Source: Methanobrevibacter millerae (lineage in GTDB: Archaea; Methanobacteriota; Methanobacteria; Methanobacteriales; Methanobacteriaceae). From it: a stretch of 64,000 bases of DNA. Made by a program: the position numbers and the translations under genes. Of this stretch, positions 4,316 through 60,025 are shown in pieces. Location: assembly GCF_001477655.1 (NCBI RefSeq), contig NZ_CP011266.1, forward strand, positions 1,968,001-2,032,000, read 5' to 3'. Below the pieces are notes generated by a model. The model did no database searches. It worked only from the letters and a program-made list of their open reading frames with translations, and was not told the origin of the DNA. The stretch's first letter is position 1; each line of letters begins with the position of its first letter.

Positions 4316-4579
4316 TTATTCATCATCAGTTACATAGATTTCTTTTTTAGTTTCTGCACTAGCATCAACAACAATATCTTCTGCATTTTCTTTCATGTCC
4401 TGGAAAACTTCTTCAGCATCCTTTTTAGCAGACATTACAGTAGCCATTCCTTTAGTAGCAGCATCTTTAACTACATCTGATTCGATAATTTTTTTACCTA
4501 CAATTGCAGTTGCAATACCTGCAGCAAAAATTAATGCATGTTTATGTTCTAGTGCTTGATCGACATATCTTCTAACCAT
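4316..4579 (-). CDS. Small DUF6110-like protein
   Basis: An 87-residue protein with one hydrophobic stretch (HALIFAAGIATAIVGKKI, about residues 13-30) and a charged, helical C-terminal half rich in Asp, Glu and Lys. It resembles the small DUF6110 proteins that accompany heavy-metal P-type ATPases in anaerobic bacteria and archaea; this is from memory. It lies downstream of the metal ATPase on the same strand after a 206-base gap. That gap holds its own TATA box and an 18-bp palindrome, so it is probably regulated separately. The start has a clear GGGAGATG site. Molecular function unknown. Confidence 0.6.
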   Translation of the reverse strand: MVRRYVDQALEHKHALIFAAGIATAIVGKKIIESDVVKDAATKGMATVMSAKKDAEEVFQDMKENAEDIVVDASAETKKEIYVTDDE

Positions 4580-4785: not shown

Positions 4786-7542
4786 TTAGAATAGTGGATC
4801 TTTCACCATTCCAATCCTAAATGAGTTCAAAATAACTAAAAGTGTTAATCCCAAATCACCAAAACCAACAGACATCATCAATGTGATTATTCCCATAATA
4901 GCCAATACTACACATAATAATTTAACAGCAATAGCTACTGAAATGTTTTGTTTAATAATACCCATTGTTTTACGACTTAAACTGAATAGATATGGCAATT
5001 TTGAAATATCATCCTGCATCAATGCCACATCCGCAGTTTCAATAGCTACATCAGAACCTGCAGCACCCATTGCAATACCAATATTTGATCTAGCCAGTGC
5101 AGGTGCATCATTAATACCATCACCAACCATAGCAACATTACCGAATTTATTCCTAATAGTGTCTAAAATATTCAATTTATCTTCAGGCATCAAATTGGAA
5201 TAAACATATTTTATTCCTATTTGATTAGCAACATTACGAGCAGCAAGTTTATTATCACCAGTCAACATTACTGTCTGTACACCTTGTTTGTTTAAATCAG
5301 CAATGACTTCTGCAGCATTATTTCTGATTTTATCAGATACTGTAATTATTGCCAATAATTCTTTTGAGTTACCTACAAATATGACTGTTTTACCTTCAAC
5401 AGAGTATTTATTTACATCATCATGAGAAATTTCAAATGCACTGCCTTCAATTAATGATTCATTAGCAGCATAATATTGTTCGCCACCAATAACACCAATA
5501 ATTCCTTTTCCAGGAACATTTTTAAAGTCATCAATTTCTTCAAATTCAATATCTTTCATTGTTGCATAATTGACAATTGCCTGTGCAATAGGGTGGGAAG
5601 ATCCATGTTCAAGAGATGCTGCTATTTTAACTACTTCCTCTTCAGATACTGAATCACTTACCACTTCAATTTCACTTAATTCAAGTTTTCCTTCTGTTAA
5701 AGTACCAGTTTTATCAAATATGACTGCTTTAATATCCCTCATTTCTTCAACATATGTACTTCCTTTAATTAAAACACCGTTTCTGGTAGCTGAAGTAATA
5801 GCAGACACCATACCCACAGGTGTTGAAATCAGAAATGCACAAGGACATGAAATTACTAGAAGAGAAAGTGCTTTATAAACCCAATCAACTAACGGTTGGC
5901 CTAATAAAACTGGAGGTATTAATGCTACACAGAGTGCAGCCACCATCATAACAGGAGTGTAATACTTAGCAACTTTTTCAACTAAAGATTCTGTTTCAGA
6001 CCTGTTGAGCTGAGATCTTTTAACCAATGTAACGATTTTGGAAATTACGGAATCTTTTGCCTTTTTGGTAACAACCATTTCAAAGTAACCATCTTCATTA
6101 ACTGTTCCGGAAAATACTTCATCACCAACTTCCTTGTGTACAGGAACACTTTCACCAGTGATTGATGCCTGATTTATGGAAGAAGAACCTGAAATAACAT
6201 TTCCATCCAATGGAACTTTATCTCCAGGTTTTACAATTACAATATCACCAATATTTACATCATCAACATTTTTTTCCACTTCAGAATCGCCGACTTTTAC
6301 CCTAGCAGTTTCAGGAGCGATTTCTACTAAAGATTTGATTGAACGTTTAGCTCTGTGTTCCGCATAATCTTCCAAGAATTCTGCAATATAGTAAAGGAAT
6401 GTTACTGCTGCACCTTCTTCAGGATGTCCAATGATAAATGAAGCAACACATGCAATACACATAAGCATTGCAGGACCAACAGTATGTCTTTTAACTAATG
6501 ACCTATATGCCATACCAGCAATTTCATAACCTGCAATAATAGCAGCACACATGAAAACAAGTGTTACAATAGTTGAGTTGAATGACAGGAATTCTAAAAT
6601 ATGTCCTGCTGCAAATAGTATACCACTTGCAACAATGATTTGGATTGGCCTATTAACTATTAAAGGTTTTCCTTCAGCTAAAAGTTCCTCATTGCTATGT
6701 CCATGGTCATGACCGTGATCATGGTCGTGGTCATCATCCGCACAGTCAGGACAACCACAGATACTTATTTCAACATCATCATCGTCATGGTCGTGACATC
6801 CACAGTCAGGGTCTGAGCAAGTATCCTTTTCTTCATGTTCATGATGATGTTCATGTTCATCATGACAACCACAATCCGGATCAGAACAAGAATCCTCATC
6901 CTCATGCCCATGATGATGCTCATGCTCGTGCCCATGGCCATGCTCATCATGACAACCACAATCCGGATCAGAACAAGAATCCTCATCCTCATGCCCATGA
7001 TGATGCTCATGCTCGTGCCCATGGCCATGCTCATCATGACAACCACAATCCGGATCAGAACAAGAATCCTCATCCTCATGCCCATGATGATGCTCATGCT
7101 CGTGCCCATGGCCATGCTCATCATGACAACCACAATCCGGATCAGAACAAGAATCCTCATCCTCATGCCCATGATGATGCTCATGCTCGTGCCCATGGCC
7201 ATGCTCATCATGACAACCACAATCCGGATCAGAACAAGAATCCTCATCCTCATGCCCATGATGATGCTCATGGTCATGATTGTGGTCATGGTCATCTGCA
7301 CAGTCAGGACAGCCACAAATATTGATATCTACATCCTCATCATAGTCTATTTCTTCTCTGTGATTATAAACACTTAAATCAGCATTAGCCTGATAATCTT
7401 TTAATAATTGCTTATCAAAATGTTGTTTGTTTTCACAGTGAATATCTTCACAATTAGGATCAAAACAAATGAAATTGAAATGTTCCGGATTATGACAATC
7501 CCCATCATCACAATCAGGTTCATAACACCTATTTTCCGCCAT
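4786..7542 (-). CDS. Heavy-metal P1B-type ATPase with expanded His/Cys-rich N-terminus (Zn/Cd/Co/Pb-like)
   Basis: A 918-residue metal-exporting ATPase. The core (from about residue 297) has the metal-site motif C566-P-C568 in a membrane helix, the phosphorylated aspartate D610 (DKTGT), TGES in the actuator domain and GDGIND near the C-terminus. The context SCPCAFLISTP is closer to ZntA/CadA (P1B-2) than to CopA. Instead of HMA domains, the N-terminus has two C-x4-C-x4-C-x4-H motifs, a block of 29-residue repeats (about residues 91-250) rich in HEHEHHHGH with CSDPDCGC, and two copies of ICGCPDCADD flanking that block. These probably bind or sense metal. It follows arsR by 17 bases, with GGTG before the start, so the two form an operon. 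Confidence 0.93.
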   Translation of the reverse strand: MAENRCYEPDCDDGDCHNPEHFNFICFDPNCEDIHCENKQHFDKQLLKDYQANADLSVYNHREEIDYDEDVDINICGCPDCADDHDHNHDHEHHHGHEDEDSCSDPDCGCHDEHGHGHEHEHHHGHEDEDSCSDPDCGCHDEHGHGHEHEHHHGHEDEDSCSDPDCGCHDEHGHGHEHEHHHGHEDEDSCSDPDCGCHDEHGHGHEHEHHHGHEDEDSCSDPDCGCHDEHEHHHEHEEKDTCSDPDCGCHDHDDDDVEISICGCPDCADDDHDHDHGHDHGHSNEELLAEGKPLIVNRPIQIIVASGILFAAGHILEFLSFNSTIVTLVFMCAAIIAGYEIAGMAYRSLVKRHTVGPAMLMCIACVASFIIGHPEEGAAVTFLYYIAEFLEDYAEHRAKRSIKSLVEIAPETARVKVGDSEVEKNVDDVNIGDIVIVKPGDKVPLDGNVISGSSSINQASITGESVPVHKEVGDEVFSGTVNEDGYFEMVVTKKAKDSVISKIVTLVKRSQLNRSETESLVEKVAKYYTPVMMVAALCVALIPPVLLGQPLVDWVYKALSLLVISCPCAFLISTPVGMVSAITSATRNGVLIKGSTYVEEMRDIKAVIFDKTGTLTEGKLELSEIEVVSDSVSEEEVVKIAASLEHGSSHPIAQAIVNYATMKDIEFEEIDDFKNVPGKGIIGVIGGEQYYAANESLIEGSAFEISHDDVNKYSVEGKTVIFVGNSKELLAIITVSDKIRNNAAEVIADLNKQGVQTVMLTGDNKLAARNVANQIGIKYVYSNLMPEDKLNILDTIRNKFGNVAMVGDGINDAPALARSNIGIAMGAAGSDVAIETADVALMQDDISKLPYLFSLSRKTMGIIKQNISVAIAVKLLCVVLAIMGIITLMMSVGFGDLGLTLLVILNSFRIGMVKDPLF
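6861..7272. repeat. 87-bp perfect tandem repeat, 4.7 copies, inside the metal ATPase gene
   Basis: Copies begin at 6861, 6948, 7035, 7122 and 7209; the last is partial and ends about 7272. I compared the copies by eye and found no base differences. Each unit encodes 29 residues, so copy-number change keeps the frame. The unit carries three cysteines in CSDPDCGC and many histidines in HGHEHEHHHGH. A degenerate copy flanks the block at about 6825-6860. Perfect identity at silent positions implies recent expansion or continual homogenisation. Confidence 0.97.
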
Positions 7543-7559
7543 TTAAAACACCATTAAAT

Positions 7560-7940
7560 TTATTCTAAAATATGTTCCAAACCAACTTTATAAATCATTT
7601 CAATATGAAGATCTGTAAGAGAGTATCTTGCCATTTTTCCTTCTTTTTGATATTTTACAATATTATTTGCTCTTAAAATCCTTAATTGATTTGAAACAGT
7701 AGTTTGATTTAAATCTAATGCATCACAAATGTCACAAACACATAAATCTTCAATAGCAAGTAATGAAAGAATTTTTAATCGTGTAGGATTACCAAATATT
7801 TTAAAAAACTCAGCTAATTCTGAATATTGGTCTTCTTCAATCATACGTTTTTGTACACGTTCAATAACATCTTCGTGAGAATTGAAAACTTCACACATAT
7901 CATCATTGTTATTTTCAAGATTATTTTTGTCTGCCATCAT
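7560..7940 (-). CDS. ArsR/SmtB-family metalloregulatory repressor
   Basis: A 126-residue winged-helix repressor. It has the SmtB/CzrA alpha5 zinc site in exact spacing: D110-x-H112-x10-H123-x2-E126, with the last ligand as the C-terminal residue. It also has C67-V-C69 in the recognition-helix region plus an N-terminal Cys (C16), like the alpha3N site of CadC. Metal binding would release it from DNA and allow expression of the downstream ATPase. I start at ATG 7940, with GTGAT just upstream; a GTG at 7946 is less likely because it would be part of that site. A perfect 20-bp palindrome lies 60 bases upstream. Confidence 0.9.
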   Translation of the reverse strand: MMADKNNLENNNDDMCEVFNSHEDVIERVQKRMIEEDQYSELAEFFKIFGNPTRLKILSLLAIEDLCVCDICDALDLNQTTVSNQLRILRANNIVKYQKEGKMARYSLTDLHIEMIYKVGLEHILE

Positions 7941-7981
7941 AATCACATTAAATTTTATCTAGTTCATATTTTATAATGTTT

Positions 7982-7991: not shown

Positions 7992-7999
7992 ATATTTTT

Positions 8000-8019
8000 A
8001 TATCATAATATTATGATAT
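8000..8019. promoter_or_regulatory. 20-bp perfect palindrome, candidate ArsR operator
   Basis: ATATCATAATATTATGATAT reads the same on both strands. It lies immediately upstream of the TATA-like element of the arsR-ATPase operon and would overlap or abut the TFB recognition element. The AT-rich interrupted symmetry resembles SmtB/CadC-type operators. Autoregulation by the downstream ArsR protein is the obvious inference. Confidence 0.6.
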
Positions 8020-8039
8020 GTTAATCTAAAAAAAATAAA

Positions 8040-8948: not shown

Positions 8949-11207
8949 TTATTCAACATCTTTTAGAGCTTCAACCATATTTAAATTCTTAATTTTACTT
9001 GAAAATAATAAATTAACCACAATTGATACAGCAAATGTTATCACACCACTTAATATTATATTTCCCAAAGTTAAAGAAGGAATATAATACAGAGATTCAC
9101 CTGCAGCATCCACCATTAATGTCATTAGGTAAAATCCTAAAGGAATACCCAATATAAATCCAATAGCAGCGAATATTATGTTTTGTGTCAATAGTAATTT
9201 TCTTAAATCACCAGTTTTAAATCCTAACACCTTAAGAGTTGCAATTTCACGTTCAATTTCTGTAAATGATAAAATTCCAAGATTATATAATACCACAATA
9301 GCTAAAAGTATTGCAAAGAATATTAAAATTGAAACCATCATCATTATAGATCCAGACATTTCATCCCAATTTTCTTTCATTTCACTTAATGTAGTGACAC
9401 TTTTAATTGAATCATATTCCTTATCAACATTCTGGGAAGTTATAATGCTTGTTGGTGTGAAATTTAATCCTAATTCATCCAATTTATCAGATGACAATAT
9501 GATTCCCTGGGACAACGGTTCACCATGAATATTAGTTATTTTACATTCAACCCAATCATCAGACCCTATGACATGCCATTTTATTGTATCTCCAACACCA
9601 ACATTTAGACTTTCCGCCATTTTTGCAGAAAGTGATATATCTGTATTGGATAAACTGAGTGGATTTTTATTTTTATCTGTCTGAGATATCAAATTCGTAT
9701 CATTTAATATAAGAAGTGATGCAGTCTTTTCATTTCCTTGAGCTTTTATTTCAATAGCTTGCTCCATTATAGTATGCCCATTTACATCCTTTCTGACATC
9801 ATCAATATCACTTAATGATGCACCATTATTAATAATTAATTTAGACTCAAAATGAGAAATATCATCATATTCCCAAGTTTTTAAATTATCCATAGAATCA
9901 TTCATACCAAAAGCTGAAACCAAAAGAGCAACACAACCCATAACCCCAACTATCGCCATCAATGCTCTGAATTTATTTCTTTTAGCATCCCTGTAATTCC
10001 AACGAAGATTGAAATTTAACCTATTCCATAATGAGGATTTTTCCAAAAATCCTGAAGATGAAATGTTTGGAGCTTTTGGTCGCATAGTATTTGCAGGATT
10101 TTCTTTTGAAATATTTCGAGCAGCCAAATAAGATACTAAAAGAGATGATAAAACCATCAAGGCAGCCACTACAACAAAACTAATGTCAAAACCAGGATTC
10201 CATTCAGGAAGTGAATATCTGTAAGTCATGGTTGGATAAAATAAATTTGGAATAATCATAGGCCCTAAAATTAAACCTAAAATAGCACCAGCTAAAACCA
10301 ACCAGAACCCATAGGACATAAAATGAAGAATTATAGTCCTATTTTTATAGCCCACTGCCTTTAAAACTCCAATTTGTGTTCTTTGATGAGATATTATACG
10401 AGTCATTGTTGTTAAAAGAGTTAAAAATGTAACTAAAATAAACACTATTGGAAAAACATCACCAATCATTTTATGTTGAGCCATTTCCTCATTAAACTGA
10501 GAAACACTTACATGTTCTGATTGCTTAGTGAAAGACAGATATTCAACAGAATCATCCAATGAATTCTTAAAATCATCAGGACTTTGGTTGAATTTAACCA
10601 ATAATACATTATATTTAATATCTGAAGGAAATGCCTTATAAGACATATAAGCAAAACCCATATCTTTAAAATCAGGTATTATAGACGTTGGTGAAGCCTC
10701 ATAAACATACTCCGGAGAGTAACCGATTCCTTTAATTTCCTTTTCAATTTCAATACCATTAAATTTAAAACTAATATTGTCCCCAACAGATAAATTTTGA
10801 GCATCAGCAAACCTTTTATCTAACCAAACTCCAGATTCATCAGATAAATTAAACTCCTGACCTTGAGATACATAAAATATAGATATTTCATTATCTTCTA
10901 CAAAATGCAGAGTAATGTCAGGATCATTTGAAAAATTGGCAACAGACTGAACAACAAGTTGTTTTTCACTATTCGTCGTAAAATTATTTATTTCATCAAT
11001 AGCATCGTCTGTAATTGTGGTATTATAAATCCAACCATCTGCAAGATTAGTATTTGTATAAAAATCAGAACTAGTTTGTTCTAAACCATAATACTCACTA
11101 CATACTCCACAAAATGCAAAAATGCCTAAAAATGCCATTAAAAATATGGAAATAAATTGAGTTTTGTTAATTTTTATATCCCTAAGCATCTTTTTAGATA
11201 ATGACAT
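8949..11207 (-). CDS. FtsX/MacB-like ABC transporter permease, paralogue 3
   Basis: A 752-residue permease with an N-terminal helix (about residues 17-37), a large extracytoplasmic domain, an FtsX core with helices about 250-380, a second extracytoplasmic domain, and three C-terminal helices. Motifs shared with its two neighbours include HQRTQIGVLKAVGY, NLRWNYRDAKRNKFRALM and SFTEIEREIATLKVLGFK. Such proteins use an ABC ATPase to drive work on extracytoplasmic substrates or to extract lipids or proteins. It is separated by 65 bases from paralogue 2. No clear ribosome binding site is visible, but a TATA-like stretch lies near 11250, so it may also have its own promoter. Confidence 0.88.
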   Translation of the reverse strand: MSLSKKMLRDIKINKTQFISIFLMAFLGIFAFCGVCSEYYGLEQTSSDFYTNTNLADGWIYNTTITDDAIDEINNFTTNSEKQLVVQSVANFSNDPDITLHFVEDNEISIFYVSQGQEFNLSDESGVWLDKRFADAQNLSVGDNISFKFNGIEIEKEIKGIGYSPEYVYEASPTSIIPDFKDMGFAYMSYKAFPSDIKYNVLLVKFNQSPDDFKNSLDDSVEYLSFTKQSEHVSVSQFNEEMAQHKMIGDVFPIVFILVTFLTLLTTMTRIISHQRTQIGVLKAVGYKNRTIILHFMSYGFWLVLAGAILGLILGPMIIPNLFYPTMTYRYSLPEWNPGFDISFVVVAALMVLSSLLVSYLAARNISKENPANTMRPKAPNISSSGFLEKSSLWNRLNFNLRWNYRDAKRNKFRALMAIVGVMGCVALLVSAFGMNDSMDNLKTWEYDDISHFESKLIINNGASLSDIDDVRKDVNGHTIMEQAIEIKAQGNEKTASLLILNDTNLISQTDKNKNPLSLSNTDISLSAKMAESLNVGVGDTIKWHVIGSDDWVECKITNIHGEPLSQGIILSSDKLDELGLNFTPTSIITSQNVDKEYDSIKSVTTLSEMKENWDEMSGSIMMMVSILIFFAILLAIVVLYNLGILSFTEIEREIATLKVLGFKTGDLRKLLLTQNIIFAAIGFILGIPLGFYLMTLMVDAAGESLYYIPSLTLGNIILSGVITFAVSIVVNLLFSSKIKNLNMVEALKDVE

Positions 11208-11272
11208 GAATAATAATATGAAAAAAATAATTGTTAAAATTAATGATTATAAAAAAATAAAGAAAAATATGG

Positions 11273-13543
11273 TTATTCATTATCCTTTAACGATTCAACC
11301 ATATTCAATTTTTTAATTTTACCTGAAAACATTAAATTAACAAGAATAGAAACTACATATGTAATTAAAAATGTTATTATTAATGTTTTAAGAGAAATGT
11401 TCGCTTTCAAGTAAAATGAATCACCCATTGTTCCCCACAAGTACTGTAATACTTCACGTCCTAAAGGAACACCAATTACGAAACCTATTGTTGTAAACCA
11501 CAGATTTTGCGTTAGCAATAGCTTCCTCAATTGAGAGGACTTAAAACCTAGAACCTTTAATGTGGCAAATTCCCTTTTGATTTCAGTAAATGACAACAAT
11601 CCAAGATTATATAACACAATAACAGACAACAATGATGCAAAGGCTGCCAACAGATATATTATAGTCATGGAAGATTCCATCATATCATCCCAACTGTCAG
11701 TCAGTGAATCCATTGAAAATATGGTTTTGACCCCAGAATAATTTTTATCCACACCATGAGAAGAAATTACACTAGTTGCAGTGTAATTCAATCCTAAATC
11801 ATCTAACTTCTCTTTGGATACGATTATACCCTGTGATGTTGGATCAGAATGAATTTTATCAACTTTTGTACTAATCCATTTATCAGAACCCATAATATGC
11901 CATTTTATAGTATCGCCAACACCAACACCCAACAATTGAGCCATCTTTGTAGAAATGGAAACCTCATTGGAAGAGATGCTAATTGGATTTTTATTATCAT
12001 CCGTTGGAGTGTATAACTTATTATCATCAAGAACTGTAATGACACCCGATTTTTTAATATCTCCCGATTTGATTTCTATCGAACTTTCCATCAATTTTTC
12101 GCCACCAACGTCATCTGCAATATAATCAACCTGTGAAGCTGTAATGTTATCTTCAAGAACCAGTTTTGATGAATAATGATTAATATCTGTGTATTCCCAT
12201 TCTTTCATCTCATCAAAGCCATCCATACAACCAAATGATGCAACAATGATCAATGTACATGCCATTACACCAACAATACTCATCAATGCCCTGAACTTAT
12301 TTCTTTTTGCATCACGATAATTCCAACGAACATTAAATGAAAATTTTTTCCATATTCCCAACTTTTCTAAAAATCCTGAAGTTGACACCTTTGGAATCTT
12401 AGGTCGTATTGCGCTTGAAGGAGACTCATTTACAATATTTCTGCATGCAAAGTAAGATATTAATGCTGCCAAAACAACCATCAACAAAGTAACCACGATA
12501 AAGCTAATGTTGAATCCAGTTAACCAGTAAGGAATAGAATACAAATCAGCCATCTCTTCAAACATTATTGGAGGCAAGGTTAAAGGTCCTAAAATCAAAC
12601 CCAAAATGCTTCCTGCCAACACCATCCAGAACCCATAGGAAATGTAGTGAAACATTATCGTGCGATTCTTAAAACCTAATGCCTTTAAAACACCAATTTG
12701 CATTCTTTGATTGTTGATGATTCTGGTCATTGTCGTTAGTAGAGTCAACATTGAAATTATTATGAATATTACAGGTATTACATCAGTCATCATTTGATGC
12801 TGTTCTGTTTCATCCTGAAACTCTGCAAAACTAGGATATTGGGCTCTTGGAAGAAATGAAGAGTAATCTCTTGTCAAATCATCATCCAACTGTTTTTCAT
12901 AATTTGAAGAGTTCCCATCATATTTAACCAATAATACATTATATGGAACATCAGATAATGGAAAAGCATTATACGAAAGATAAGCAAAACCCATCTTACC
13001 ATAATCAGGTATCATTGATGAATCAGATGTCTGATACAAGTGCTCCGGCGAATAACCCAAACCTTTAATTTCCTTTTCAACAGTTATTCCTTCAAAAGTA
13101 AATGAAATATTATCGCCAACAGTTAAATTTTTAGCTTCAGCAAACCTAATATCCAACCATACCCCATCACCATCAGATAAATTAAATTCTTCCCCTTTTA
13201 CGAGATAAAATTTTGAAATATCATTATCCTCTAAAAAGTGTAGAGTAATATCCGGATCATTGTCAAAATCGGCAATCGAGTTTACAATTAGTTTACGTTC
13301 AGAGTCTTTCGTTGAAGACAAATCATTTACCTTATTTACAAAATCACCATCAATATTAGATGCGTAAATCCAGCCGTCAGCCAGATTAGTTTCACCATAA
13401 TATGTTGAAGCAGTTTCTTCAAATCCGAATGATTCTGCTCCAAAACCTGTAAAGACATATACTCCTAAAAATGCCATTAAAAAAATGGAGATGAATTGAA
13501 TCTTATGATTCTTGATATCCCTAACCATTTTTTTGAATAGCAC
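11273..13543 (-). CDS. FtsX/MacB-like ABC transporter permease, paralogue 2
   Basis: A 756-residue paralogue with the same architecture as its neighbours, including NVRWNYRDAKRNKFRALM and SFTEIKREFATLKVLGFK. I start it at GTG 13543, one base after the upstream stop. This gives an N-terminus (LFKKMVRDI) matching paralogue 1 and the same predicted length of 756. A longer reading from 13579 would overlap the upstream gene. One-base spacing implies translational coupling with paralogue 1. Confidence 0.88.
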   Translation of the reverse strand: MLFKKMVRDIKNHKIQFISIFLMAFLGVYVFTGFGAESFGFEETASTYYGETNLADGWIYASNIDGDFVNKVNDLSSTKDSERKLIVNSIADFDNDPDITLHFLEDNDISKFYLVKGEEFNLSDGDGVWLDIRFAEAKNLTVGDNISFTFEGITVEKEIKGLGYSPEHLYQTSDSSMIPDYGKMGFAYLSYNAFPLSDVPYNVLLVKYDGNSSNYEKQLDDDLTRDYSSFLPRAQYPSFAEFQDETEQHQMMTDVIPVIFIIISMLTLLTTMTRIINNQRMQIGVLKALGFKNRTIMFHYISYGFWMVLAGSILGLILGPLTLPPIMFEEMADLYSIPYWLTGFNISFIVVTLLMVVLAALISYFACRNIVNESPSSAIRPKIPKVSTSGFLEKLGIWKKFSFNVRWNYRDAKRNKFRALMSIVGVMACTLIIVASFGCMDGFDEMKEWEYTDINHYSSKLVLEDNITASQVDYIADDVGGEKLMESSIEIKSGDIKKSGVITVLDDNKLYTPTDDNKNPISISSNEVSISTKMAQLLGVGVGDTIKWHIMGSDKWISTKVDKIHSDPTSQGIIVSKEKLDDLGLNYTATSVISSHGVDKNYSGVKTIFSMDSLTDSWDDMMESSMTIIYLLAAFASLLSVIVLYNLGLLSFTEIKREFATLKVLGFKSSQLRKLLLTQNLWFTTIGFVIGVPLGREVLQYLWGTMGDSFYLKANISLKTLIITFLITYVVSILVNLMFSGKIKKLNMVESLKDNE

Positions 13544-13544
13544 C

Positions 13545-15815
13545 CTATTCAACCCCTTTAAGAGATTCGACCATGTCAAGCTTCTTGATTTTGCGTGAAA
13601 ACAACAAATTCACAAGAATAGATAATGCAAATGTTATCACAGCAGTCAACAGGAAGTTTGAAAGTGATATTGAAGGCAATATATAGAATGAATCACCGGA
13701 AGACTGCCACATGATATCCAAAATATAATAACCCAATGGAAGACCTAAAACAAATCCAATAGCTGTAAACCATAAATTTTGAGTTAACAGCAATCTTCTA
13801 AGAGAACCTGTCTTAAATCCTAAAACCTTTAATGTGGCAATTTCACGTTCAATTTCAGTGAAAGATAACAATCCTAAATTGTAAAGCACAACAACCGCTA
13901 AAAGACATGCAAAAAATATTAGAATGTAAACTAAAAGCATCATTGATTCAGTCATTTCATCCCAGCTGGTTGTCATGTCATTCATTGAATTAACAGCCTT
14001 AATGTCTGAGTAGTTCTTATCCACATGCTCAGAAGTGACAATGCTTGTTGGAGTATAGTTCAAATCCAATGCACCCAATTTATCAGATGACATTATAAAC
14101 CCTTGTGAAATAGGATCTGCATGTATTTTATCAATTTTTGTTGATACCCATTTATCTGAACCCATAATATGCCATTTGACAGTATCACCAACACCAACAC
14201 CCAGCAAATCAGCCATTTTTTGAGATATTGAAGTTTCATCGTTTCCGATTTTAATTTCATTCCTATCATAATCGGTAGGCGTTACAAGATTCGTGCCATT
14301 CAGTACCAGAAGTGAACCTGACTTTTTAGCATTGCCCGATTCGATTTCTATAGCACTTTCCATTAACTTATCACCATTGACTTCATCGGCTATATTATTT
14401 ATGCTTGATATGCTTGCATTATCATTTACAATCAATTTTGAATCATAATGATTGATTTGTGAGTATTCCCATTCTTTCAAATCATGCATTCCATCATACA
14501 TGCCGAATGCAGATACTAAAAGTGCAGCACAACCCATAACACCAACAATTGTCATTAATGCTCTGAATTTATTTCTTTTGGCATCACGATAGTTCCAGCG
14601 AACATTAAATGAAAACCTTTTCCATATGCTTGTTTTTTCTATAAATCCTGAAGAAGAAATTTTAGGCACCTTAGGCCTTATTGTATCTGCAGGATTTTCA
14701 CTGGATATGCTTCTAACAGCAAAATATGAAACTAAAAGAGACATTACAACCATTATGATTGCAACATAAACAAAGTTCATGCTCCATGCAGGTTTCCATT
14801 CCGGTAAAATGTATGTGGCACTCATTGATGGATAAAATAAATTAGGCAATGTTAAAGGACCAATAATAAGACCTAAAATTGCTCCAGCCAATACCAGCCA
14901 GAAACCATATGAAACATAATGGAAAATTATACTTTTATTTGTATATCCAACTGCTTTCAATATACCGATTTGTGTTCTTTGATGGGCTATGATACGAGTC
15001 ATAGTTGTCAATAAAATCAATAAAGCAATTAAAATGAATACAACTGGGAAAATATCCCCCATCATCTTATGCTGGTCTATTTCTTCTGAAAATTGAGACA
15101 CACTCGGATTTTCTGATTTCTCAACAAATGAATTATAATCTCCGTCCAACTTATCTGAAAGCAAATCATTATAATTACCAGCAGATCCATCAAAATCAAC
15201 TAATAATACATTATATGGAACATCAGATAATGGAAATGCTTCATAGGACAAATATGCAAAACCCATTTTATTGAAATCCGGGATTATTGATGAATCAGAT
15301 GCATGATAAACATATTCTGGAGAATATCCCAATCCTTTAATTTCCTTTTCGATGCTTACTCCATTGAAAGTGAAAGAAATATTATCTCCAACTTTTAAAT
15401 TCTTTGCATCAGCAAAACTCTTATCTAGCCATACTCCATCTTCATCACTAATGTTTACATCTTCACCTTCAAGAAGATAAAATTTAGAAATAGTATTGTT
15501 CTCTAAAAAATGCAATGTTATTTCCGGATCGTTTGAGAAATTTCCAATCGAATCTATTACAAGTTGTCTTTCAGTATCTTTTGTAGGTGATAGGTTATTT
15601 ACCTTATCAACAAAGTTATCATCCAAGTTTGCTGAATAAATCCAACCATCTGCTAGGTTAGTTGCATCATAATAATCATTAACACTAACTTCCAAACCAA
15701 CTGATTCTCCTCCGACACCAGCGAATACAAAAACACCTAAAAAAGCCATTAAAAAAATAGATAGAAACTGTGTTTTATGCTTCGCGATGTCTCTCAACAT
15801 CTTTTTAAAAAGCAT
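13545..15815 (-). CDS. FtsX/MacB-like ABC transporter permease, paralogue 1
   Basis: A 756-residue permease directly downstream of the ATPase gene. The start is ATG 15815, with GGTGAG overlapping the ATPase stop codon; a TTG at 15830 inside the ATPase gene is unlikely. The N-terminal helix reads FLSIFLMAFLGVFVFAGVGG, followed by an extracytoplasmic domain with repeated aromatic/Asp motifs (DADGWIYS-like LADGWIYSAN). It shares long identical blocks with paralogues 2 and 3, so the trio arose by tandem duplication. Probable partner of the ATPase upstream. Confidence 0.9.
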   Translation of the reverse strand: MLFKKMLRDIAKHKTQFLSIFLMAFLGVFVFAGVGGESVGLEVSVNDYYDATNLADGWIYSANLDDNFVDKVNNLSPTKDTERQLVIDSIGNFSNDPEITLHFLENNTISKFYLLEGEDVNISDEDGVWLDKSFADAKNLKVGDNISFTFNGVSIEKEIKGLGYSPEYVYHASDSSIIPDFNKMGFAYLSYEAFPLSDVPYNVLLVDFDGSAGNYNDLLSDKLDGDYNSFVEKSENPSVSQFSEEIDQHKMMGDIFPVVFILIALLILLTTMTRIIAHQRTQIGILKAVGYTNKSIIFHYVSYGFWLVLAGAILGLIIGPLTLPNLFYPSMSATYILPEWKPAWSMNFVYVAIIMVVMSLLVSYFAVRSISSENPADTIRPKVPKISSSGFIEKTSIWKRFSFNVRWNYRDAKRNKFRALMTIVGVMGCAALLVSAFGMYDGMHDLKEWEYSQINHYDSKLIVNDNASISSINNIADEVNGDKLMESAIEIESGNAKKSGSLLVLNGTNLVTPTDYDRNEIKIGNDETSISQKMADLLGVGVGDTVKWHIMGSDKWVSTKIDKIHADPISQGFIMSSDKLGALDLNYTPTSIVTSEHVDKNYSDIKAVNSMNDMTTSWDEMTESMMLLVYILIFFACLLAVVVLYNLGLLSFTEIEREIATLKVLGFKTGSLRRLLLTQNLWFTAIGFVLGLPLGYYILDIMWQSSGDSFYILPSISLSNFLLTAVITFALSILVNLLFSRKIKKLDMVESLKGVE

Positions 15816-58230: not shown

Positions 58231-60025
<1,795 letters not shown>

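Follow-up and report, generated by a model that had tools for sequence, protein, structure and literature searches.

The region around the repeat was analyzed within a 64-kb stretch (positions 1,968,001–2,032,000) of the genome of Methanobrevibacter millerae SM9 (the window). A gene for a heavy-metal ATPase of 918 amino acids lies there on the minus strand, preceded at a distance of 17 bp by a gene for an ArsR/SmtB-type metalloregulator on the same strand and followed by a gene for a small DUF6110 protein (Table 1). The ATPase scored well above the cut-offs of both TIGR01525 (609.8 bits; cut-off 346) and TIGR01512 (513.4 bits; cut-off 313.5), and the closest solved structure to its core was 4umv, a zinc-transporting ATPase. 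The DKTGT motif (residues 610–614), the HP motif (650–651), the CPC motif of the transport site and two membrane residues, Lys874 and Asp896, were invariant in 34 relatives. Because CPC, HP, Lys874, and Asp896 do not vary, and because the latter two align with the corresponding lysine and aspartate of 4umv, the enzyme is P1B-2–like. Judged by its sequence, the SM9 pump belongs to the P1B-2 (Zn/Cd/Pb) class, which refines the P1B assignment of the original prediction, and it is predicted to be an exporter. No Pfam match to an HMA domain, which is typical of P1B-2 ATPases but not universal among them, was obtained for the ATPase, and its N-terminus matched no other known domain either.

The ArsR gene is kept upstream of the ATPase gene in nearly all Methanobrevibacter-type loci for which enough sequence is available. 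Approximately 50 bp upstream of arsR, a perfect 20-bp palindrome (8000–8019) is embedded in a 22-bp operator-like site. The 22-bp consensus, CATATCATAATATCATGATATG, was found with at most four mismatches in all of 55 upstream regions, and the palindrome was located at 39–54 bp in each of them except one (75 bp). When the upstream sequences were shuffled, only 2 of 2,750 contained a match to the palindrome with five mismatches or fewer. The 19-base core pattern of the palindrome occurs a single time in the SM9 genome. The site at 7999–8020 is, thus, a strong candidate operator for the ArsR group, and both hallmarks of ArsR/SmtB-regulated operons, an adjacent regulator gene and an upstream inverted repeat, are present at this locus. 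The DUF6110 gene, whose PF19605 score is just over the cut-off, accompanies the ATPase gene in only part of the clade, the part of SM9 included. DUF6110 is described as a relative of PacL (DUF1490), which serves a P1B zinc exporter as a scaffold and chaperone-like partner (PMC9374683). Elsewhere in the SM9 genome, a second match to DUF6110 (876508–876702) adjoins another P-type ATPase match (877244–878797), and in one relative (G062:C8:27213–28137), four DUF6110-like matches follow the ATPase gene immediately and in tandem. Beyond the arsR side of the locus, two adjacent long genes for FtsX-like permeases (752 and 768 amino acids; 8949–13579) appear to be a tandem duplication.

Table 1. Features of the ATPase locus of M. 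millerae SM9, with positions counted from the first nucleotide of the window.
Feature	Position	Strand	Basis or conservation
DUF6110 protein (PacL-related group), downstream gene of the likely operon	4316..4579	-	PF19605 just above cut-off
P1B-2-type heavy-metal ATPase gene, 918 aa	4786..7542	-	ORF; TIGR01525/TIGR01512 above cut-off; nearest PDB 4umv
Membrane Lys874 and Asp896, P1B-2 signature residues	4855..4923	-	Invariant in 34 relatives; aligned with K and D of 4umv
CPC motif of the transport site, residues 566–568	5839..5847	-	Invariant in 34 relatives; aligned with 4umv
Second CGCPDC block, residues 262–267	6742..6759	-	Nearly invariant in 34 relatives
Sixth, diverged copy EEKDTCSDPDCGCHDHDDDD and junction to the array	6781..6856	-	Differs from the other copies at silent sites and in amino acids
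87-bp tandem array, 29-aa unit HEHHHGHEDEDSCSDPDCGCHDEHGHGHE	6857..7272	-	Exact-period scan and TRF
First CGCPDC block, residues 76–81	7300..7317	-	Three Cys invariant in 51 relatives
Two C-x4-C-x4-C-x4-H modules, residues 6–21 and 26–41	7420..7527	-	No variation of the eight Cys/His among 51 relatives
Metalloregulator gene of the ArsR/SmtB type, on the strand of the ATPase gene and 17 bp upstream of it	7560..7946	-	NF033788 and PF01022 above cut-off
Operator-like palindrome, CATATCATAATATTATGATATA on the minus strand	7999..8020	.	Perfect 20-bp palindrome at 8000–8019

The N-terminal tail of the ATPase is composed, in this order, of two C-x4-C-x4-C-x4-H modules, a CGCPDC block, a zone of His/Cys repeats, and a second CGCPDC block. 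In SM9, the zone between the blocks comprises 180 amino acids, 52 of them histidine and 18 cysteine, and a total of six C-x4-C-x-C-H motifs is found in the array. The N-terminal module was present in 88 of 150 genomes sampled across the order, representing 5 of 19 genera; in several genomes of genus g12, the C-x4-C-x4-C-x4-H domain is itself doubled in tandem (G115, G116, G117, G122, G124, and G126; loci L161, L162, and L163). AF2 gave a mean pLDDT of 47 for the N-terminal module and of 52 for the full protein, that is, no confident structure of the tail; therefore, neither fold claims nor fold searches were based on the models. A weak PDB match of the N-terminus to NKG2-D (E 0.036) was not considered credible.

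Exact 87-bp periodicity spans positions 6857–7272 (416 bp, 4.78 copies, no mismatch). TRF independently reported 6852–7272 (4.8 copies, 99% matches, score 835), by a wide margin the strongest tandem repeat of the window; a 38-bp unit present in two copies at 97% beside an A-rich repeat (59896–60006) was also reported by TRF. The array, which had originally been described as four full copies plus a partial one beginning at 6861, is real, except that it starts at 6857 and that its 4.78 exact copies are joined on the C-terminal side by a sixth copy (Cys motif at residue 242), which is diverged at silent sites, too. An end copy resembling this sixth one is present in relatives L010–L015. As had been proposed, the array is in frame (within the minus-strand ORF 4786–7542, encoding the 918 amino acids) and identical at silent sites, with no mismatch over 416 bp and the same codon at every position of the interior copies. 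The three cysteines claimed for each unit were confirmed, and the histidines amount to 9 per 29-amino-acid unit. Given the codon usage of the gene itself, two copies of 29 codons would match completely with a probability of ∼10^-6.4, and in 40 synonymous-codon shuffles, the exact tandem repeat never exceeded 140 bp, compared with the 416 bp observed; chance is, therefore, ruled out for the SM9 array. The 87-bp unit occurs at this single locus of the SM9 genome. Its absence elsewhere, together with periods that are all multiples of three and units that differ between species, excludes that the array is a DNA element, be it a set of regulatory sites or CRISPR-like. Two further ORFs overlap the array, one of 180 amino acids on the plus strand (6835–7377) and one of 183 amino acids in another frame of the minus strand (6765–7316). 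Both were taken as by-products of the stop-free 87-bp period rather than as genes, and they are likely to be annotated wrongly.

The closest relative of SM9 is the M. millerae SIG13 MAG (L009), a sister species with a core DNA identity of 0.90. Six motifs were counted in it, as in SM9, a provisional equality since one unit of this MAG contains Ns; motifs one to five have the same offsets from the first CGCPDC block in both genomes (28, 57, 86, 115, and 144). Among units 1–4 of SM9, no pair shows a difference at any of the 87 bases, and among the units of L009, pairs differ at 0–3 bases. Between SM9 and L009, the units are ∼10% diverged, which is the same as for the core. Independent evolution of the copies since the split would predict ∼33 differences over the SM9 array, and none was seen (P ∼7e-15). 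The fact that the six motifs and the first five offsets are shared, yet the units are ∼10% diverged, argues that the array predates the split. Most likely, it is older than the separation of SM9 and L009 and was afterward homogenized in each lineage separately (concerted evolution) or re-amplified; homogenization per lineage is the parsimonious reading, contraction followed by re-amplification the alternative. The description of the repeat as recently expanded was, thus, overstated.

The same behavior was observed across the relatives. In 30 of 55 genes, exact in-frame tandem DNA repeats were present that were longer than in any of 40 synonymous shuffles. The periods in these 30 genes ranged from 36 to 174 bp, all of them multiples of three, and the units were mostly different. 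Where identical Cys-containing stretches of 10 residues were compared, silent codon identity averaged 0.95 for stretches of the same gene (23 genes) and 0.67 for those of different genes (659 pairs). The zone between the CGCPDC blocks measured 40–207 amino acids (median 93; 53 genes), in a set in which each species is represented by one genome, mostly a short-read MAG whose array is possibly collapsed or broken. Even pairs with 98–99% identical core proteins differed in the length and make-up of the zone (102 versus 114, 59 versus 128, and 99 versus 67 amino acids). The more distant relatives L012 and L037 have clearly different arrays; unit number, therefore, changes over longer times. The repeat is concertedly evolving: copies are closer to each other within a species than between species, silent sites included, and length varies among relatives. 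In 12 genomes of the genus, a contig ends inside the ATPase gene, and in 10 of these 12, the end falls within the array (under uniform breaks, P lies between 4e-8 and 2e-6; counted by hand). This concentration of contig ends implies that short-read assemblies under-report long arrays. Two loci were unusual. In L040 (L040:4001–6316), a frame shift inside the array opens a long out-of-frame stretch rich in Met/Thr, the array having slipped or, alternatively, been assembled wrongly. In L055 (L055:4001–4968), a Methanobrevibacter tail runs into unrelated-looking coding sequence just beyond the second CGCPDC block; this is probably a chimeric contig of RUG11987, the ATPase core of which is found on another contig (L035).

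The locus is probably a metal-responsive operon with a P1B-2 exporter, the tail of which binds Zn/Cd-like ions at multiple sites and the repeat zone of which evolves by turnover of its units. The anatomy of the locus and the conservation of its motifs and of the operator-like site are observed; the identity of the metal, repression, ion capture, and hand-over are read from that anatomy and would fit together as follows. The operon would comprise an ArsR-type repressor, the P1B-2 exporter, and, in the clade of SM9, the DUF6110 protein. When the metal rises in the cytosol, the ArsR protein would leave the conserved 22-bp candidate operator, and the pump would be made. The cytosolic N-terminal tail of the exporter, acidic and presumably flexible, may bind Zn/Cd-like ions at many sites, its six C-x4-C-x-C-H motifs and many histidines capturing several ions beside the membrane at its inner face. 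Ions bound there would be either buffered or handed to the CPC/Lys/Asp transport site. Between the two CxCPDC blocks, unequal recombination, gene conversion, or replication slippage would duplicate and remove repeat units and let one unit overwrite another. Such turnover would lead to copies that match within a species and to unit sequences, periods, and numbers that differ between species; both the homogeneity at silent sites and the turnover between species were observed directly.

It is also conceivable, if somewhat improbable, that the repeats are a neutral by-product, any acidic His-rich tail being sufficient and low-complexity coding DNA slipping and homogenizing while copy number is unselected. 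The great freedom in unit sequence, period, and number, next to fixed flanking Cys blocks and N-terminal modules, agrees with this notion, as do the short tails of some relatives (40 amino acids between the blocks). However, the composition of the zone (34% His, 38% Asp plus Glu, and 6.5% Cys over 53 genes) is preserved, and so is the reading frame, which is why the metal-binding character seems to be selected even if the number of units is not. Some relatives lack the Cys motif of the array and keep only stretches of His/Asp/Glu; the Cys sites are, therefore, not essential to the family. Unlikely is the view of the original prediction that the array is an adaptive contingency repeat, the copy number of which changes frequently between strains and cells and is selected as a rheostat of metal tolerance. 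Instability is to be expected of perfect tandem DNA such as this, the species pairs with 98–99% identical core proteins differ in array length, and repeat number differs among species in Brassica HMA4 as well, but the sister species L009 seemingly has the same six motifs, with the first five offsets equal. More doubtful still is the notion that in host-associated Methanobacteriaceae, the clade-wide, repeatedly rebuilt tail constitutes an evolvable metal-buffer dial on the P1B-2 exporter, such that gain, loss, and homogenization of units would be selected and would set the Zn/Cd held at the membrane.

One 454 read is approximately as long as the 416-bp perfect array, and the exact copy number in SM9 is uncertain for that reason; the array itself is supported by the similar arrays of independently sequenced relatives. 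The SM9 genome, a single contig of 2,543,538 bp, was assembled with Newbler from 454 paired-end and mate-pair libraries, followed by Sanger gap closure (PMC4987999). That the assembler created the copy number or the perfection of the array is very improbable, despite this procedure and the fact that contigs of related MAGs often end within the array, considering that the reading frame is intact throughout, that the terminal copy retains silent differences of its own, that independent arrays with their own units exist in 30 of 55 relatives, and that the L009 units show species-specific differences at matching positions.

The cytosolic tails of P1B ATPases are very varied, and their purpose is debated. 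The probable metal-responsive operon described here, from a methane-producing archaeon of the rumen whose pump tail is rich in Cys/His, presents an orthologous pump for which core, regulator, and operator-like site are conserved and which comes in dozens of natural tail variants that differ in unit and number. With these variants, a series is already at hand to test whether tails with many metal-binding sites serve buffering, delivery, or regulation. Related species with comparable tails rebuilt from different repeats also offer a good natural experiment on the question of whether metal handling is tuned by the number of repeats. The locus is also a case of strong concerted evolution within a single archaeal protein-coding gene, and a site where short-read assemblies tend to break.

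With ZntA-type P1B-2 ATPases (e.g., 4umv), the SM9 pump shares the core fold, CPC, the membrane Lys and Asp, and the HP motif. ZntA carries an HMA-type domain at its N-terminus, whereas the tail of the SM9 pump, for which no HMA match was obtained, consists of the C-x4-C-x4-C-x4-H modules and the repeat array. In the PacL1–CtpC pair of Mycobacterium tuberculosis (a DUF1490 protein and a P1B ATPase), the ATPase gene likewise lies beside that of a small membrane protein of the DUF1490/DUF6110 group (PMC9374683). An accessory metal-binding segment, which in PacL1–CtpC is important at high zinc (PMC9374683), is counted here as a further shared feature. In M. tuberculosis, the metal-binding motif is situated on PacL, whereas in SM9, the predicted binding capacity resides on the ATPase itself. 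Unlike PacL1, DUF6110 is described as being without the metal motif (PMC9374683), and it is found beside the SM9-type ATPase in part of the clade only.

A functional precedent comes from HMA4, a P1B-2 ATPase of Brassica, which belongs to the mustard family. The repeat of its C-terminal tail, BjHMA4R, raises Cd tolerance in yeast on its own and varies in number among Brassica species (PMC6394093). In both systems, the pump is of the P1B-2 type, its cytosolic tail contains repeats with Cys, and repeat number varies among related species. The plant tail is C-terminal with the motif CCGDKK, whereas the archaeal one is N-terminal with C-x4-C-x-C-H and runs of His; the two are not homologous, and by analogy only, the archaeal tail would work like BjHMA4R. 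No paper describing the archaeal repeat tail was found in open-access text. Repeated metal-binding tails on P1B-2 ATPases are already known as a kind, as is the concerted evolution of intragenic repeats; new here are the position of the tail, its motif, its archaeal distribution, how far the repeats have turned over, and the conservation of the operon frame.
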